64,000 nucleotides of DNA from an uncultured Thermomicrobiales bacterium (GTDB lineage: Bacteria; Chloroflexota; Chloroflexia; Thermomicrobiales; UBA6265): contig CADCWG010000068.1 of the NCBI GenBank assembly GCA_902806335.1, positions 40,058 to 104,057 on the forward strand, given 5' to 3'. Of this stretch, positions 3,240 through 53,605 are shown piece after piece. The notes under the pieces are model-generated. The model searched no databases, was not told the origin of the DNA, and worked only from the letters and a program-made list of their open reading frames with translations. Both the position numbers and the translations under genes were made by a program. The first letter of the stretch is position 1; each line of letters starts with the position of its first letter.

Positions 3240-4964
3240 ATGGGTAACCGTGACGAACGGTCGGATCGAGAACAGATGGGGACCTTGCTCGTCGCGGGGG
3301 TGAGCCGCCGGGACCTGATGCGGGTCGCCGCGGCGATGGCGGGCCTGTCCGGCGTGGCCGTGGTCACCCCGACGCCGAGTGCCGCTTCCGGCACCGCGGT
3401 TGGGCAGGCCGCCGCGGTCCCGGCGCGCCAGCCCAGTCCGGGCGGACAGATGATCTGGGGGCGCGCGGGTGATCCGGACACCCTCGATCCCCACCGGACC
3501 AACGCCGCCGTCGCGTCAGCGGTGTTCACCAACATCTTTGATCCCCTCGTCGGCCGGACGATGGATCTTCAGTTCGAGGGTCTCGTCGCCGAGCGCTGGG
3601 AGATCTCGCCCGACGGCCTCCAGTACACGTTCTTTCTCCGCCCGGGCCTCAAGTTCCACGACGGCACCGACGTCAACGCGGAGGCGGTGAAGTTCACGTT
3701 CGACCGCCTGATCGACCCCGCCACCGAGGCGGAGTCGGTCTCGTGGATCGGACCGCTGGACCGGACCGAGGTGATCGATCCCCTGACGGTCCGCATGGTG
3801 CTCCGCGAACCGTTCTCGCCGTTCCTTGGCAACATGAGCATCGCCGGCTACTTCGGCATCCTCTCGCCCACCGCCGTCCAGCAACTCGGTGACGAGTTCG
3901 GACAGCGCCCGGTCGGCAGCGGACCGTTCCGCTTCAAGGAGCGGATCACGGGCGAGAGCGTGACCCTCGAGCGGAACCCGGACTACCAGAACTTCCGGTC
4001 CTACGTCACCAACAAGGGGGCCCCCTACCTCGACGAGCTCGTCTTCCGCAACATCCCCGAAGAGCAGACGATGGTCGCAGCGTTCGAGACCGGCGAGATT
4101 AATCTGCTGGTAGTGCCGCCGCGCCAGGTCCCGGACTTCGAGGCCAACGCCGACTACCAGGTGCTCCGCTTCGAGGGCGGCACGAACATCCAGTTCCTCG
4201 AGTTCAGCATGCTCGAGCACGAGGGCGAGTTTGGTGCGGTCTTCAAGCCGCCGTTCGACGACGTCCGCCTGCGCCAGGCGGTGGCCCACGCGATCAACGC
4301 CGATGAGATCATCGAGCGGGTGCTGGAAGGGCTCGCGATCCGCAACTACGGGCCGATGCCGGTCAGCAATAACGGCTACAACCCGGAGATCGAGACGTTC
4401 GGCTACCACTACGACGTCGATGCCGCCAACCGGTTGCTCGACGAGGCGGGTTGGGTCAGGACGAGCGACGATGGGCCGCGCGAGCGCGACGGTCAGCCGC
4501 TCCGCGTGGCCTTCTGGACCTGGGTCTCAGGAGTCCAGGAGCGCGTCGCCCAGGTGATCCAGAACCAGTTGACGCAGGTGGGCTTCCAGGTCGACCTCAC
4601 GACCATGGAGGTCGCCACGCTCCTGAACCGCCTCGGTGAGCCGGACGACACCTCGAACATGGACCTCATGGGCTGGGGCTGGGGCGAGTCCGACCTCCTC
4701 TACATGATGACCGACTCCGGTTCCGGCGTCGGACGGTATCAGCCCGAGTCGTACCGTCGGCTGGTCACCCAGGCCCGGCAGGTGACCGACCTCCAGGAGC
4801 GGGCCAACCTCTACTTCGAGGCGATGAAGGTCATGCTCGCGGACGCGGCGATGGTCCCGCTCTGGACGACCCAGCTCGTGACCGGGGTGCGCACGGACCT
4901 CCAGGACTTCAAGCTCGGTCCCCAGGGGACGTACGTCTACGTGGACGCCCACGTGGCGGAGTAG
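3240..4964 (+). CDS. ABC transporter substrate-binding protein, peptide/nickel family 5, with Tat-like signal
   Basis: SRRDLMRVAAAMAGLSGVAVV signal; GDPDTLDPHRTNAAVASAVFTNIFDPLVG...FHDGTDVNAEAVKFTFDRL typical of SBP_bac_5. Confidence 0.93.
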   Translation: MGNRDERSDREQMGTLLVAGVSRRDLMRVAAAMAGLSGVAVVTPTPSAASGTAVGQAAAVPARQPSPGGQMIWGRAGDPDTLDPHRTNAAVASAVFTNIFDPLVGRTMDLQFEGLVAERWEISPDGLQYTFFLRPGLKFHDGTDVNAEAVKFTFDRLIDPATEAESVSWIGPLDRTEVIDPLTVRMVLREPFSPFLGNMSIAGYFGILSPTAVQQLGDEFGQRPVGSGPFRFKERITGESVTLERNPDYQNFRSYVTNKGAPYLDELVFRNIPEEQTMVAAFETGEINLLVVPPRQVPDFEANADYQVLRFEGGTNIQFLEFSMLEHEGEFGAVFKPPFDDVRLRQAVAHAINADEIIERVLEGLAIRNYGPMPVSNNGYNPEIETFGYHYDVDAANRLLDEAGWVRTSDDGPRERDGQPLRVAFWTWVSGVQERVAQVIQNQLTQVGFQVDLTTMEVATLLNRLGEPDDTSNMDLMGWGWGESDLLYMMTDSGSGVGRYQPESYRRLVTQARQVTDLQERANLYFEAMKVMLADAAMVPLWTTQLVTGVRTDLQDFKLGPQGTYVYVDAHVAE

Positions 4965-5042
4965 CAGCAACATCGGGCTCGCCGCTCTTCACGGCCGGTG
5001 GGGGCGTCCCCTGGGACGTCCCCGCGGCCAGGTCGTGGGGCC

Positions 5043-5969
5043 ATGTTCAAGTACGTGCTCCAACGCCTCGCCGCCGCGGTCCCGGTGCTGTTCGGGGTCA
5101 CGCTGCTGGTGTTCTTCATGGTCCGCCTGGTCCCCGGGGACCCGGTGGACGCGATGTTCGCCGGCCAGGCCGAACCGTCGCCCGAGCGCAAGGAGGCGAT
5201 GCGCCGCCAACTCGGCATCGACGGCCCGGTCCCGGTGCAGTTCGCGCGCTTTCTCGGCGACGCGGTGCGCGGGGACCTCGGCGACTCCTTCCGCAGCAAG
5301 CGGCCCGTGGTCGAGGAGATCCGGACCCGTTTCCCGAACACGGTCAAGCTGACGCTCGCGAGCCTGACCGTCGCGATCCTCCTCGGCGTCAGCGCCGGCA
5401 TCGTCGCCGCCGTCTTCCGCGGCACCTGGGTCGATGGCGCCAGCATGCTGGTCGCGATCCTGGGGGTCTCCGTGCCCGGCTTCTGGCTCGGGCTGATGGT
5501 CATCCTGCTCTTCTCGGTCCGCCTCGGCTGGTTCCCGGTGGCCGGCGCGAGCACCTGGCGCCACCTGGTCCTCCCGGCCGTGACCCTCGGCGTGCTGGCG
5601 TCGGCCGTGCTGGCCCGGATGACCCGCGCGACGATGCTGGAGGTGCTGTCTCAGGATTACGTGCGGACCGCCCGCGCGAAGGGACTGGGCGAATCCCTGG
5701 TGGTCCTCCGCCACGCGCTGCGGAACGCGCTGGTGCCGGTGGTGACGATGATCGGACTCCAGGTTGGGGGGCTGCTCTCGGGCGCCTTCATCATCGAGGC
5801 CGTCTTCGCCTATCCCGGCATCGGCCTGCTCGCCGTCAATGCCCTGCAGACCCGTGACTTCCCGGTGATCCAGGGGATCGTCCTCTTCGTCGCCGTGATC
5901 TACGTCCTGGTGAATCTGCTCGTGGACGTCCTCTACGGCTTCCTCGACCCGCGGATCGGCTTCGGCTAG
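5043..5969 (+). CDS. ABC transporter permease (DppB-like)
   Basis: MFKYVLQRLAAAVPVLFGVTLLVFFMVRLVPGDPVD; EAA loop ...ARAKGLGESLVVLRHALRNALVPVVT; follows SBP gene. Confidence 0.93.
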   Translation: MFKYVLQRLAAAVPVLFGVTLLVFFMVRLVPGDPVDAMFAGQAEPSPERKEAMRRQLGIDGPVPVQFARFLGDAVRGDLGDSFRSKRPVVEEIRTRFPNTVKLTLASLTVAILLGVSAGIVAAVFRGTWVDGASMLVAILGVSVPGFWLGLMVILLFSVRLGWFPVAGASTWRHLVLPAVTLGVLASAVLARMTRATMLEVLSQDYVRTARAKGLGESLVVLRHALRNALVPVVTMIGLQVGGLLSGAFIIEAVFAYPGIGLLAVNALQTRDFPVIQGIVLFVAVIYVLVNLLVDVLYGFLDPRIGFG

Positions 5970-6018
5970 GCGCCCGCCGTCGGTCGGCGGGGCCGCGGCG
6001 ACGACGGAGGGTGACGGG

Positions 6019-6915
6019 ATGGCGCAGCTGACCGCGGGGACGCTGCCCGAACTGGAACGGCAGCGGGAGACGCGCCGGCAGCGCCGGCTCGCCATCGGCC
6101 GGTTACGGGCCAACCGGCTCGCGGTCGCCGGCGGGGCGATCATCCTGGCGCTGGCGCTGGTCGCGCTCGCCGCGCCGCTGCTGGCGGCCGAAGACCAGGA
6201 CAGCATGACCCTGGAGAATCAGTTCCTGCCGCCCAGCGCCGAGCACCCATTCGGGACCGACGACTTCGGGCGGGACATCCTCAGTCGGGTCATCCTCGGC
6301 TCGCGGATCTCGCTCCAGGTCGGCCTGGTCGCCGTCGGGATCGCGGCCACCGTCGGCACGGTGATTGGACTGCTCGCCGGCTACTACGGCGGCTGGGTCG
6401 ACACGATCAGCCAGTGGGCCGTCGACGTGATGCTCGCGTTCCCCGGCCTGCTACTGGCGCTGGGCGTGGTCGCCGTGCTCGGGCCGGGGCTGCTCAACGT
6501 GATGATCGCCGTCGGGATCGGCTCTTTCCCCGGCTACGCCCGGCTGATGCGGGGGCAGGTCCTCGCGCTCAAGCAGACGGAGTACGTGGAAGCGGCGCGG
6601 GCGAGCGGGGCGACCGGCGGCCGCATCCTCACCCGCCACATCCTGCCGAACGCCCTCTCGCCGCTGATCGTGCTCGCCTCGCTGGGCGTCGCGGGCGCGA
6701 TCCTGACCGCCGCCGCCCTGAGCTTCATCGGCCTCGGTGCCCAGCCGCCGTCCCCGGAGTGGGGCGCGATGCTGAGTTCCGGCCGCGAGTACCTGCGCCG
6801 AGAGTGGTGGATCACCACCTTCCCCGGCGCCGCGATCGCCATCACCGTGCTGGCCTTCAACCTTCTGGGTGACGGCCTCCGCGATGCCCTGGATCCGCGC
6901 GCGACGCGCGGCTAG
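6019..6915 (+). CDS. ABC transporter permease (DppC-like)
   Basis: HPFGTDDFGRDILSRVILGSRISLQVGL; EAARASGATGGRILTRHILPNALSPLIV. Confidence 0.93.
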   Translation: MAQLTAGTLPELERQRETRRQRRLAIGRLRANRLAVAGGAIILALALVALAAPLLAAEDQDSMTLENQFLPPSAEHPFGTDDFGRDILSRVILGSRISLQVGLVAVGIAATVGTVIGLLAGYYGGWVDTISQWAVDVMLAFPGLLLALGVVAVLGPGLLNVMIAVGIGSFPGYARLMRGQVLALKQTEYVEAARASGATGGRILTRHILPNALSPLIVLASLGVAGAILTAAALSFIGLGAQPPSPEWGAMLSSGREYLRREWWITTFPGAAIAITVLAFNLLGDGLRDALDPRATRG

Positions 6916-13670: not shown

Positions 13671-13830
13671 TCAGTACCGGATCGGGGTAATCGCCGGCGC
13701 TTCGCCCGGCGGGGACGCAGCCGGCTTCAGCCGGCTGCGTCCCTGAGCCGCTGACCTCGGGGCTCGGCCCCGGGCGGGGCGACCGTCCCGGCACCCCCGG
13801 TACCATCACTGATCAGCCGGGTTCGGTATA
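13671..13830 (+). repeat. Dispersed intergenic repeat, copy 1
   Basis: AGTACCGGATCGGGGTAATCGCCGGCGCTTCGCCCGGCGGGGACGCAGCCGGCTTCAGCCGGCTGCGTCCCTGAGCCGCTGACCTCGGGG...CACCCCCGGTACCATCACTGATCAGCCGGGTTCGGTATAA; closely matches 38723-38873. Confidence 0.85.
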
Positions 13831-13978
13831 ACACCGAACCGGGGGTACCTTCGAGGGATCGACGACGTGGCAACGGCTGGGCCCGCCGTGGCGCATGCCC
13901 CGGGCTCAGGCACGAAGCCGGCTATAGGCCGGCTGGGATCCCCGGGCACGGACGCCGGAGTGACCATTCGGAGTCCGC
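13831..13978 (-). repeat. Dispersed intergenic repeat, copy 2 (tail-to-tail with copy 1, diverged)
   Basis: Reverse strand TGCGGACTCCGAATGGTCACTCC...CAGCCGGCCTATAGCCGGCTTCGTGCCTGAGCCCGGGG...GGTACCCCCGGTTCGGTGT. Confidence 0.65.
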
Positions 13979-14017
13979 ATCGATTCCCGTCTGGCCACCG
14001 GGCGGCGGCGGCGGGGG

Positions 14018-17127: not shown

Positions 17128-17319
17128 AGTTCCGACGTCTCGCGCTCCGCCACTGGTCGGGATCGATCGTCGTCGTACCGCGATTGATCGGGTCGAATCG
17201 AGTCGCCGGGATCCGGCGCCGCGGTCACCGTCCGTCTCCCGCCGGTCGCCATCGGGGCCGACGGTCCCTCTTGCCACATGCGGGTCATAGGTGGGGGGAG
17301 CGGGGGCGCGTGGGCGCGG

Positions 17320-17432
17320 TCTCGTCCGGGCACGCCCGGGGCGAGCCCCGAGGTTGGAGGTTCAGGGACAAGGTCGGCGCAAGCCGGCTGTGAGTCCATC
17401 GGACGCGGGGTGCCAGCAACCACCCTGGGTCT
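17320..17432 (-). repeat. Dispersed intergenic repeat, diverged copy 3
   Basis: Reverse strand CAGCCGGCTTGCGCCGACCTTGTCCCTGAACCTCCAACCTCGGGGCTCGCCCCGGGCG matches the middle of the consensus; ends unclear. Confidence 0.55.
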
Positions 17433-17800
17433 GTTCCTGGCGGTCTGCCACTCCTCGTCGGCGGGAGGAAGTCACCCGGTCGGGGCGACGCCTTGGCCGT
17501 GCGGTTGCCCGCGAGGGCAGGGCCTGCGGTGCCCCTACCGGTGGAACAAGGTCGACGGGCCACCAGGGCTCGCGGTGCCTGGGGACGTGGTCTCGCCCAG
17601 CGGGAGACCGCCGTCACCACCAGGCCGAACACCGTCATCGCCCGCGAAGGAGACCCGGTGCGGTCCCGCTGACCGTGGCCACCAGGGACCGGCACGTCGG
17701 GATCGGGCACCGGGTTGGGCACTGGGCGACCCGGCCCGGAAGACGGTCCGGTCCCCTGTGGCCGTGGTCCGTCGGTACGGTCGGCGACCGAACCGCCTGG

Positions 17801-27981: not shown

Positions 27982-28260
27982 CGCCGGCGGCGCCTCACGC
28001 CGCGGGTTGGGACGCTTCGACGCTGTCGGTCCCTGCCGGATCTCGCCGGTCGCACCGCCCCGGCACTGGTCGGCGCGGGAGGACCCCGATGGCCGTCACC
28101 ATCGTGCCATCGCGAGGCCCAGGTGGACCCCGGGCCGTGCTCCGCGGCACCACAGGGGGGCCGATGGGCGACTAGCCGTGCCGCAACCGGACCCGGGCCA
28201 GATCGCCCGCCGCCGGGTCCTGACATCGCGCCGAGTTAGACCCTGCCTAAACGGACTGCT

Positions 28261-28412
28261 GCTGATCGGCGGTGGTAACGAGGGGAGCCAGTGGCGGAAC
28301 CCGCCCAGGCAAGCCTCGACGCCAGTGGCTCACGCACGAGGCCGGCTCAGGCCGGCCGCGGACCGACCGGACGAGGCCCGGGCAGTCCTCCGGATGACGT
28401 GCGATACCGGAT
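28261..28412 (-). repeat. Dispersed intergenic repeat, copy 4
   Basis: Reverse strand GCGGCCGGCCTGAGCCGGCCTCGTGCGTGAGCC...GTTACCACCGCCGATCAGC matches the conserved core and 3' motif. Confidence 0.7.
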
Positions 28413-34443: not shown

Positions 34444-34509
34444 CCGCACGGCACCGCGGGAGGCGGTGATCGCCTCCCACTGGACCCGTCACTTCGGTGC
34501 TGGGCTGAG

Positions 34510-34622
34510 CGGGCGAGGTTGGCCGCGCCCGCCCGAGGCCAGCGCCCCGGCGCGGAGCCGGCTCGGGCCGGCCGCCGACCCGCCGGGCGAAGCCCCTGGC
34601 GACCACCCGGATCCCGAGATCG
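34510..34622 (-). repeat. Dispersed intergenic repeat, copy 5
   Basis: Reverse strand GATCTCGGGATCCGGGTGGTCGCCAGGGGCTTCGCCCGGCGGGTCGGCGGCCGGCCCGAGCCGGCTCCGCGCC. Confidence 0.7.
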
Positions 34623-36837: not shown

Positions 36838-36996
36838 ACTCATACGGTATTCGGTTGGACGGTGGTTGAAGTGGTATCGGGGGCGGGCGCTGGCCGGGCC
36901 TGCCCGGGGGAAGTCCCGGGCGCAGGGACGAGGCCGGCTCAAGCCGGCCGCGGACCGGCGGGCCAAAGCCCGGGTGATCACCCGGATTCCGTATCA
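36838..36996 (-). repeat. Dispersed intergenic repeat, copy 6 (full length, both terminal inverted repeats)
   Basis: Reverse strand TGATACGGAATCCGGGTGATCACCCGGGCTTTGGCCCGCCGGTCCGCGGCCGGCTTGAGCCGGCCTCGTCCCTGCGCCC...CGAATACCGTATGAG; ends 12/15 inverted. Confidence 0.85.
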
Positions 36997-37129
36997 ACCA
37001 GCGTCCAGGCGATCGCCGGGCGCCTCACCCGGCGGGTGCGTGGCTGGCCCGAATTGGCTCGGTGCCTTTTGCGGCCTCCTGGTGATCGATTGCGGAATCC
37101 GGGGAGCGGTCGTCCACGGGACCTCCCGG

Positions 37130-37216
37130 GATAGGTCCGAAGCCAGAGGCTGAGGGGCGCAGCCGGCGGCGGACCCGCCGCGCGACGCGCCGGCATCAAC
37201 CCGGAGGCCGTATGAG
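37130..37216 (-). repeat. Dispersed intergenic repeat, degenerate fragment 7
   Basis: Reverse strand CTCATACGGCCTCCGGGTTGATGCCGGCGCGTCGCGCGGCGGGTCCGCCGCCGGCTGCGCCCCTCAGCC. Confidence 0.45.
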
Positions 37217-37534
37217 CCCGGGGCCTGGCGTCCGGTGGGCGATGTCGCTGGCGCCCCCCCGGTACCAGCACCGAACAGCCGGATGCCATACCGCGCGGCC
37301 GCCTCTTCGGCGTCGGTCGACTCGGGGCGGCCCGGCCGCCGAACCGAAGGTTGACCTCTGCGCCAGTGGCTCCATGACTCCGGGCCAGTGGCCGGTCCCA
37401 TTGGGGGACCCGCGTGGGCGCGATGCCCGACGCGGCCCGAGCCATGCGTCGGACGGGCCAACCGGGCGAGTGGGGCCGCTGTCCCTCCTGCTGCCGGCGC
37501 GCGTGTCCCCCACGGGACGCACCGGATCGGAACC

Positions 37535-38725
37535 ATGGAGCTTATCGAGGAGCCGGGGCTGCGCGTCCCGATCAAGAGCTGGTTGCCCCCGACCGAGATC
37601 GAGCCGGCGGCGATGGAGCAACTGCGCAACGCCGCCCGCCACCCGGCTGTCGGCAGCCACGTCGCGGTGATGCCCGACTGCCACCCCGGCTTCGGGGTGA
37701 CGATCGGCTGCGTCTTCCCGACCGTCGGGGCCGTGGTGCCCGCCGGCGTCGGCGTGGACATCGGCTGCGGGATGTGCGCCGTCGCGACCGGTCGGTCCTA
37801 CGCGCCGGGCCGGATGAACGGTCGCTTCTGGGATCGGTGGGCGGAGAAGGTCCGCGCCGCCGTGCCGACCGGCTTCGGGGCGCACCGCCAGCCGCGGGCC
37901 TGGTCGGGCCTCGGCACCAAGCTCCGCGCCGAGGCGCTCCAACCACTCCTGCGGACTAAGGCCGCCACCCAGCTCGGGACGCTCGGCGGCGGCAACCACT
38001 TCCTGGAAGCGCAGGTGGACGAGACCGGCGAGCTGTGGGTGATGGTCCACTCCGGCAGCCGCAACACCGGCCTGCGGATCGCGGACCACTACCGCGACCT
38101 GGCCCACGACCGGGCGAACGCCACCGGTGACCAGGTCCCGCCCGACCTCTGGGCGTTGCCGCTGGACGCCGAGTCCGGCCGCGACTACCTCCACGACATG
38201 GGATGGGCGACGGAATTCGCGCGCGAGAATCGCTACCGGATGCTCGAGGCGATGCTCGAGGCGCTCGATGTCGATCCGGAGGAGGTCGGTGGTCGCGCGG
38301 CGTTCATCAACATCCCCCACAACTTCGCCCGCATCGAGGAGCACGGCGGGTCCGACGTGGTCGTGCACCGGAAGGGGGCGACCTCGGCGCGGGCGGGTGA
38401 GCTCGGCATCATCCCCGGCAGCATGGGCACCTCGAGCTACGTGGTGCGCGGGCGCGGCAACCCGGACAGCTTCGCGTCGTGCTCGCACGGGGCGGGTCGC
38501 AGGATGGGGCGGCGTCAGGCGCGGCGGGCGATCGATCAGGCCGCCTTCAAAGCCGCCCTCGCCGGCACCCACACGCGCGCGTCGGCTGGGTACCTCGACG
38601 AGGCGCCGCAGGCCTACAAGGACGTCACCGAGGTGGTGTCTCGGCAGGCCGACCTGGTCGAGATCGTCCACACCCTGCGGCCGCTCGTCACCGTGAAGGG
38701 CGACAGCCGGGCGAAGGAGGACTGA
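37535..38725 (+). CDS. rtcB: RtcB family RNA-splicing ligase
   Basis: VAVMPDCHPGFGVTIGCVFPT, VGVDIGCGMCAV, LGTLGGGNHFLE, GSMGTSSYVVRGRGNPDSFASCSHGAGRRMGR. Confidence 0.95.
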   Translation: MELIEEPGLRVPIKSWLPPTEIEPAAMEQLRNAARHPAVGSHVAVMPDCHPGFGVTIGCVFPTVGAVVPAGVGVDIGCGMCAVATGRSYAPGRMNGRFWDRWAEKVRAAVPTGFGAHRQPRAWSGLGTKLRAEALQPLLRTKAATQLGTLGGGNHFLEAQVDETGELWVMVHSGSRNTGLRIADHYRDLAHDRANATGDQVPPDLWALPLDAESGRDYLHDMGWATEFARENRYRMLEAMLEALDVDPEEVGGRAAFINIPHNFARIEEHGGSDVVVHRKGATSARAGELGIIPGSMGTSSYVVRGRGNPDSFASCSHGAGRRMGRRQARRAIDQAAFKAALAGTHTRASAGYLDEAPQAYKDVTEVVSRQADLVEIVHTLRPLVTVKGDSRAKED

Positions 38726-38873
38726 TACGGGATTCGGGTGATCGCTTGGGCTTCGCCCGGCGGGATCGCGGCTGGCTTCGGCCGGCTTCGTCCCTGAGCC
38801 GCTGACCTCGGGGCCTGCCTCGGGCGGGCCGGCACCCCCGGTACCACCACTGATCGGCCGGATTCGGTATGAG
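38723..38873 (+). repeat. Dispersed intergenic repeat, copy 8 (full length; first 3 nt are the rtcB stop)
   Basis: TGATACGGGATTCGGGTGATCGCTTGGGCTTCGCCCGGCGGGATCGCGGCTGGCTTCGGCCGGCTTCGTCCCTGAGCCGCTGACCTCGGGG...GGTACCACCACTGATCGGCCGGATTCGGTATGAG. Confidence 0.88.
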
Positions 38874-39489: not shown

Positions 39490-39631
39490 ACCGGGATGCA
39501 ACGTCGGTGGAGGTACCGGAGGCGCGGCGGCCGAACGGCCCAGCCGTGGGACGCCTCGTGGCCGGAGGCTCGGGGGCGAAGCCGGCTTCGCCCCCGCCGG
39601 GCGAAGCCCCGGCGACTACCTGGGGTCCGGA

Positions 39632-39634
<3 letters not shown>
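39490..39634 (-). repeat. Dispersed intergenic repeat, copy 9 (first 3 nt are the guaB stop)
   Basis: Reverse strand TGATCCGGACCCCAGGTAGTCGCCGGGGCTTCGCCCGGCGGGGGCGAAGCCGGCTTCGCCCCCGAGCC...CTCCGGTACCTCCACCGACG. Confidence 0.75.
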
Positions 39635-42494
<2,860 letters not shown>

Positions 42495-52174: not shown

Positions 52175-52339
52175 GCGCCGACGCGTGGCGGGCCGGGACC
52201 GGACCGGCCGCCCATGCTCGTTCCGCGGGCATTACCGCTGGAACCGCTATTCGCGGAGGGGCGACACGGATCCGAGCCGACGGAGGACGGACGGCGTCGC
52301 CGTGGACCGGCCTAGCCAGCCAGAACGGATCCGTGTGAC

Positions 52340-52468
52340 GGCTGGAGGAATCGGGCGCACCGGCGGCCGGGAGCAATCCGGGCATGCCCCGGGCTCGGGG
52401 ACGAAGTGGGCTCAAGCCGGCCGCGGATTGACCGGGCGAGGCCCGGTGATCTCCCAGATCCCGTGTCA
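52340..52468 (-). repeat. Dispersed intergenic repeat, copy 10 (first 3 nt are the hisI(E) stop)
   Basis: Reverse strand TGACACGGGATCTGGGAGATCACCGGGCCTCGCCCGGTCAATCCGCGGCCGGCTTGAGCCCACTTCGTCCCCGAGCCCGGGG. Confidence 0.78.
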
Positions 52469-53605
52469 GGCGGGGGGATCCGCGGGGCCCGCGAAGTAGG
52501 CGGCCAGGTAGGGCCTGGTGCGGAGTTCGACCAGGTCCGCCTCGGCCACGGCCAGGGGATCCACCGAGGCCGCGCGGCACGCCTGACCGACCAATGCGAT
52601 GGTCGCGTGGCAGCGGGCCGCCACAGCCCCCGCGCGAGACGCCAGCGCCCACGCCGCGGCGTCCGCCCGGAGCACCCGAGCGACGGTCTCGGCCGACGGA
52701 CCCGCGCGGCCCTCGCGGCCCTCGCGGCCCTCGCGGCCCTCACCACCCTGGCCCGCGGCACCGTCGGCGGTGGCGAGGGCACGGTCCGGACGGACCTGCT
52801 CCCAGGTGGCCCCCGCCCGCAGCGCTACCAGCATCAGCCAGTAGAGGACCTGTCCCGCCTCGAGCGGCACGTCCTGGTCCCGGCCGTGGTGGACGTGACT
52901 GCCGTCGAGCGCCCCGGCGAGTTCCTGGAGCTCGTCGGCCACGCGCGGAGCCAGGTCGCCGCCAGCACCACGAAGGCGGCCCGAGGTTGACGAGACGGCG
53001 GCGAGGTCCTGGTCGCGAAGGTGGGCGTAGGCGCCGAAGAGGGCCCGGGTTGCCTCCTCGAGCCGGGCGTCGCGTGACGAGCCACCTCCGGCGGGAGGCT
53101 CGGCGTCCGGCCCTGCCTCCCCAGCCCGGGAATCGGGGGCGGTCACGGATCCGTTGCCGTAGACGACCTGGGGGTCGAAGGCGCGCTCGCGGACGGTCGT
53201 CAGCGTGCCGTCGGGCTCGAGGCGGCGGTAGTAGCACGTCGGGTAGCCGTCGTGGCAGACCGCGCCGACCTGCCGGGCAAGGACGAGCAGGCTGTTCTGC
53301 TCGCAGTTGACGCGGATCTCGGCGACGATCTGCTCGTGGCCGGACGTCTCGCCCTTGCGCCAGAGCTTGCCCCGGCTCCGGCTCCAGAAATGGACCCGTC
53401 CGGTCGCCCGGGTGGCGGCGAGGGCCGTCCGATCCATAAACCCGACCATCAGGACATCGCGCGTCTCGGCGTCCTGGACGATCGCCGGGACCAGGCCGTC
53501 GGCGGGAAACCGGATGGGGAGGGCAGCTTCCTCGCTGGGGGCGGTCACCGCGGCGGGGACGGCCCCGCTCTCCGGGCGGGCTGCGGTGCGGTCGGGGGCG
53601 GTCAT
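52466..53605 (-). CDS. hisI: Phosphoribosyl-AMP cyclohydrolase fused to a divergent HisE/MazG-like domain
   Basis: [94 protein letters not shown] overlap with hisF. Confidence 0.9.
52706..52742 (-). repeat. 9-bp tandem repeat within hisI CDS, encoding [11 protein letters not shown]
   Basis: CCCTCGCGG repeated about 4 times. Confidence 0.85.

Follow-up and report, generated by a model that had tools for sequence, protein, structure and literature searches.

A MITE with a TNA target-site duplication very likely explains the repeat junctions at the rtcB, guaB and hisI stop codons of an uncultured Thermomicrobiales bacterium

Introduction

In eukaryotes, PIF/Harbinger and Tourist MITEs generate 3-bp TWA/TNA duplications. 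The repeat described here resembles these eukaryotic elements in its 3-bp duplication. Among bacteria, a 3-bp TNA duplication is found in the IS1031 subgroup of the IS5 family, where the ISLrh case used TGA (PMC12016507). Bacterial MITEs have been reviewed (PMC10969869), and REPs, which are 20-40 bp long and consist of a palindrome with a GTAG or CGTC tag, have been reported to supply TAG stops (PMC3733652).

Here, we analyzed a repeat in a stretch of 64,000 nucleotides (the window) from the genome of an uncultured Thermomicrobiales bacterium. The window corresponds to positions 40058-104057 of contig CADCWG010000068.1 (C68), in an assembly of 4.82 Mb and 332 contigs that is 92.6% complete. 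The 3-bp TNA duplication of the IS1031 subgroup, including ISLrh, is also present in this element. The ends of ISLrh, GAACCTGTCTAGTATCT (GAACCTG...), differ from the TACSGRATYCGG ends found here, in a comparison with this one published member, and a transposase flanked by TACSGRATYCGG ends was not found in the host's own assembly. The element works like an IS1031-type MITE, and we treat it as a candidate member of the subgroup. It is likewise comparable to bacterial MITEs in being short and non-coding, with inverted ends, a target duplication, a high copy number and much decay in size and sequence. It differs from them in its concentration in convergent spacers and in its abundance, about one copy for every 7 kb of contig sequence sampled, a density that is somewhat overestimated because the contigs were partly picked for strong copies. 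Finally, in GTAG-tagged REPs the REP itself supplies the TAG, whereas the stops described here are host DNA that was duplicated; the unit length of ~145 bp and the true target duplication also depart from the REP/BIME definition of 20-40 bp with a GTAG or CGTC tag.

Results

The first-pass annotation of the window described a repeat that begins at the stop codon of rtcB and shows the same arrangement at guaB and hisI. All three junctions are present in the sequence, next to genes carrying the Pfam domains RtcB, IMPDH and PRA-CH, respectively. The gene for the tRNA-splicing ligase RtcB (37535-38725, plus strand; PF01139, E = 1.3e-102) was delimited by gene calling, its longest open frame starting at 37388, and its 3' end reads GAG GAC TGA, followed directly by TACGGGATTCGG. 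Downstream of the TGA stop (38723-38725), a core of 144 bp with the ends TACGGGATTCGG and CCGGATTCGGTA occupies positions 38726-38869 of the plus strand. This core, the top-scoring family member by nhmmer (129-130 bits), is closed by a second TGA at 38870-38872. The span had originally been given as 38723-38873; its start holds, and the right end falls at 38872, one base earlier.

The gene for IMP dehydrogenase, guaB (39632-41107, minus strand; PF00478, E = 5e-158), ends in a TGA stop (39634-39632), and the adjoining TCCGGACCCCAG is a decayed element end. This stop forms the left triplet of a decayed copy detected by nhmmer (39504-39634, minus strand), whose right triplet is CCA. Similarly, hisI (52466-53605, minus strand; PF01502) ends in a TGA at 52468-52466, followed by CACGGGATCTGG, and the stop bounds a decayed copy (52319-52468, minus strand) with a right triplet that now reads TGG. 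Besides the PRA-CH domain, HisI (52469-53605, minus strand, without the stop codon) comprises a C-terminal extension of ~220 amino acids, which has no Pfam match and is conserved in the family.

Of the ~13 nhmmer hits in the window, only these three copies coincide with a stop codon. Two other copies are well preserved, one with a TGA/TGA duplication away from any called stop codon (36840-36996, minus strand) and one with CAG on the left and TAA on the right (13672-13832, plus strand). Diverged copies, all detected by nhmmer on the minus strand, are located at 13839-13982, 17274-17433, 28249-28404, 34479-34616 and 37072-37215. No Rfam match at the gathering threshold was obtained within the window.

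To describe the family as a whole, we sampled 2.05 Mb, or 43%, of the 4.82-Mb host genome. An HMM built from the element copies themselves identified 285 non-overlapping copies of the ~145-bp element (286 hits) and none in the reversed genome sequence, which served as a control. An 18-nt end motif, allowing at most 2 mismatches, gave 239 matches in the whole genome versus none with the reversed pattern. The element has inverted ends, TACSGRATYCGG...CCGGATYCGGTA, with TACSGRATYCGG at both termini, and 41 of 143 copies match at least 11 of 12 positions at both ends. With its terminal inverted repeats, its target-site duplication and its short, non-coding and multi-copy unit, the repeat is a MITE, a new family of a known kind. 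A literature search for the element end sequence found no relevant paper, and a plasmid BLAST search with the joined ends returned chance-level matches only. Counting against this reading, an identical triplet is left in only 33 of 190 full-length copies; we take most copies to be old.

The boundary triplet recurs on the same strand at the far end of the element. Among 39 full-length copies with TNA at both ends, 30 carry an identical triplet on both sides, against a shuffled mean of 12.8 and a maximum of 23 in 20,000 shuffles; in an earlier subset of copies, identical triplets were found in 27 of 33, with 11.3 expected. The pairs comprised TGA..TGA (14 copies), TCA..TCA (11), TAA..TAA (3), TTA..TTA (2) and mixed combinations (9), where the share of TGA is possibly somewhat inflated by a seed search that required TRATAC. 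This seed does not affect the permutation test, in which base composition is held fixed, and the boundary statistics should also stay unaffected by a choice of contigs favoring strong copies. TGA..TCA, the pairing that an inverted repeat would produce, was rare (3 copies). In the 41 best-ended copies, the flanks showed a preference for G at -3 and C at -1, followed by T-N-A, and for G at +1 and C at +3. The target is TNA within a palindromic GNC-TNA-GNC, and the element begins after the triplet. As the boundary TGA recurs on the same strand at the far end, and may equally be TCA, TAA or TTA, it is duplicated host DNA that lies outside the element. The TGA at rtcB, previously counted as the first triplet of the repeat, is one copy of this host duplication, and the element itself starts only at 38726.

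Genes were called with our own codon-usage gene caller, which returned 1651 genes in the 2.05 Mb. None of the 285 copies was found inside a called gene, although coding sequence has 77% of the TNA sites; outside elements, there are 24,560 TNA sites in coding sequence, 6,547 in intergenic sequence and 879 at stops. Compared to the expectation from spacer length, copies in the 2.05 Mb were numerous in convergent spacers (169 versus 51), fewer in tandem spacers (98 versus 149) and scarce in divergent spacers (8 versus 75), and 45% of the 267 convergent gene pairs contain at least one copy. We also considered whether the right end, GTA followed by TGA, restores ATG starts at ATGA overlaps; this was rejected, with no called gene start at such positions in start calls that are weak.

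The bias towards convergent spacers is what would be seen if copies were kept for a job at gene 3' ends, as two-way terminators or as protectors of mRNA 3' ends between convergent genes, a role that would include the junctions at stops and is compatible with a MITE origin. The plus strand of the rtcB copy also folds slightly better than shuffled sequences (z = -1.9). However, folding of the opposite strand does not surpass that of shuffled sequences (z = +1.1), no U-tract terminator is found near this copy, and the RNAalifold consensus fold shows little covariation (2 of 18 pairs); a selected RNA structure in the element was accordingly rejected. Nor is orientation clearly biased in tandem spacers (44 versus 54), and the copies are strongly decayed. 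Furthermore, a similar distribution is expected if purifying selection removes insertions from promoters, operons and genes. With promoters, operons and genes closed to insertion, tolerance largely explains the convergent bias, and we regard a 3'-end role as rather unlikely. Still less probable, in our estimation, is that MITE copies became this genome's standard element for two-way 3' ends, with transcription ending at MITE hairpins in nearly half of the convergent pairs.

Turning back to the duplicated TNA target, we asked how often it coincides with a stop codon. In total, 315 gene 3' ends run towards an element boundary lying at most 400 nt away. For 32 of them the stop codon coincides exactly with the boundary triplet, while other offsets between -300 and +170 have at most 4 gene ends each, with a mean of 0.66 per nt over -100 to -1. 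Both element ends serve equally, 15 of these stops being located at left ends and 17 at right ends. The stops are TGA in 29 cases and TAG in 3, as predicted by the TNA rule, even though TAG represents 43% of the stops in called genes (695, compared to 806 TGA, or 50%, and 108 TAA). The three stop-coincident copies with TAG, which is not a TNA triplet, may be decayed or due to chance. The 43% share of TAG itself seems high for a genome of ~74% GC and depends on our own gene caller. In older stop-coincident copies, the stop side is still TGA and the opposite triplet has decayed, as in hisI (TGA and TGG); this is expected if selection holds the stop alone, with the asymmetry being illustrative only, since the copies were selected by their stop status.

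We then compared the stop insertions with a null model, in which elements land on TNA sites and copies inside genes disappear. The stop share under this null is 11.8% when unweighted and 18.6-20.2% when sites are weighted with the target matrix, the value of 18.6% coming from a matrix of non-stop copies. The observed share is 26 of 190 full-length copies (13.7%), or 7 of 30 copies with a clean TNA duplication (23%). Matching the null to spacer types gave an expectation of 31 stop insertions without weighting and 47 with it, and 24 were observed. Stop insertions show no excess over the TNA null, and there is no evidence for a stop-codon preference as such. The deficit in the weighted comparison may reflect the blurred ends of old copies. 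The genome-wide enrichment at stops that the first-pass annotation had raised is therefore present at the exact boundary, with 32 of 315 gene ends, but TNA targeting together with exclusion from genes yields as many or more.

The comparison of C-termini with orthologues, which had been proposed along with the repeat, was run with sequences from other genera, not close strains, and indicated that the ends of RtcB, GuaB and HisI are native. Five RtcB orthologues from the same family, with 55-76% identity, close with GDS(R/K)AK(E/D)D and stop precisely where RtcB stops here, with TGA or TAG as the stop codon. The C-terminus of GuaB orthologues is at the same residue or at most 4 further, and most HisI orthologues end within 6 residues of it, the C-terminal extension being common to the family. 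As these proteins end at or near the same residue in genomes where the element is absent from this position, RtcB, GuaB and HisI have been neither truncated nor replaced. In another genus, guaB (G009:C257, L152) ends in TAG, and a related element is located ~17 nt downstream at TCA, representing an insertion that arose independently close to the end of this gene, off the stop. In G015:C84 (L130), also from another genus, the TGA of rtcB is followed by TACGGG, resembling the element end, with the remainder mismatched; this may be chance or a relic.

The sharp peak at offset 0, with its 32 gene ends, would also be accounted for by an element that seeks out stop codons or provides the termination codon itself, with genes truncated or ended by element sequence. 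We nevertheless consider it very improbable, given that the triplet is duplicated host DNA and reads TCA, TTA or TAA at junctions without a stop codon, that the C-termini are native, that TAG stops are nearly absent and that the stop count does not exceed the TNA null. Regarding the initial proposal of insertion or retention at stops, retention is upheld, the stop having been kept; the element does not replace or supply the stop codon, as the TGA is duplicated host DNA.

The TNA duplication and the element ends were also found in other genomes. When 84,980 species genomes were scanned for the pattern, the ends were identified in a Thermomicrobiales MAG of the same family, a Xanthobacteraceae MAG and an Acetobacteraceae MAG. 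The elements have the same ends with different interiors, span 138-262 bp and, in 6 of 7 readable copies (three of the 7 came from the search of relatives), are flanked by identical TNA triplets. In the same-family MAG, a 255-bp element with another interior (L117:6150-6410, JADYYO010000258.1) is located on the TGA stop of metK (4917-6152), where the stop forms the element boundary and TGA is present on both sides. A 151-bp element with similar ends in the Xanthobacteraceae MAG (L116:3062-3218, JASHPU010000247.1) is flanked by TTA/TTA and lies on the TAA stop of a gene of 383 amino acids. The distribution of these sequences suggests, provisionally since MAG contigs can be misbinned, that the ends occur beyond the phylum of the host.

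A transposon with these ends was not identified in the host's own assembly (92.6% complete, in which repeats may be missing) using PF01609, PF13359 and PF13340, which counts against the MITE reading. The transposase domains of this genome comprise one PF01609 fragment, no PF13359 and two PF13340 above the cut-off, none of which is flanked by TIRs. Scanning genomes of the class and viral contigs for the end patterns likewise returned no transposon with these ends. An IS5-type transposase fragment, without element ends, is present at a contig edge (L055:1-300, G000:C191). Two longer TIR pairs with matching TNA were found in the 2.05 Mb. One, of 855 bp, encloses an ORF of 142 amino acids. The other, of 1970 bp on C121 (TTA/TTA), was rejected as an autonomous partner because it encloses a luciferase-like gene and so probably consists of two neighboring copies.

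A palindrome family of the REP/BIME kind, spread by a RAYT (Y1) transposase, would share the intergenic location, high copy number, hairpins and 3'-end bias of the repeat; the true target duplication, the inverted ends and a length of 145 bp against the 20-40 bp of REPs (PMC3733652) make it scarcely credible. Finally, TGA is both the commonest stop (50%) and the commonest TNA duplication, but we give almost no credence to three TGA-like 5' ends having fallen on stops by chance, as 32 stops fall exactly on the boundary where the background is 0.66 per position, and independent cases occur in two other genomes.

Discussion

We consider it very likely that the repeat is a MITE with a TNA target duplication, and that the junctions at rtcB, guaB and hisI are native stops that have been retained. 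This non-coding MITE of ~145 bp inserts at TNA, with a preference for GNC-TNA-GNC, and duplicates the 3 bp; it would be moved by a transposase supplied in trans. Insertions inside genes would be removed by selection acting as a filter. Within a gene, a TGA (or TAA) stop would then be the only TNA where an insertion does no harm, with the duplication restoring a complete stop at the same frame position. The coincidence with stop codons is real and frequent, but it follows from the landing-site rule and not from special targeting.

What appeared to be an element targeting stop codons thus becomes a quantified outcome of a TNA landing rule, in which the 3-bp duplication makes stops a harmless site within otherwise closed coding DNA. 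The concentration of copies in convergent spacers makes a function in ending transcription testable; if copies did acquire it, a transposon with a harmless landing rule would have turned into a termination or insulation system. The common ends and TNA rule also occur in other bacteria, among them a proteobacterial MAG, where the interiors are unrelated, and they point to a transposase lineage for which a search is now possible.
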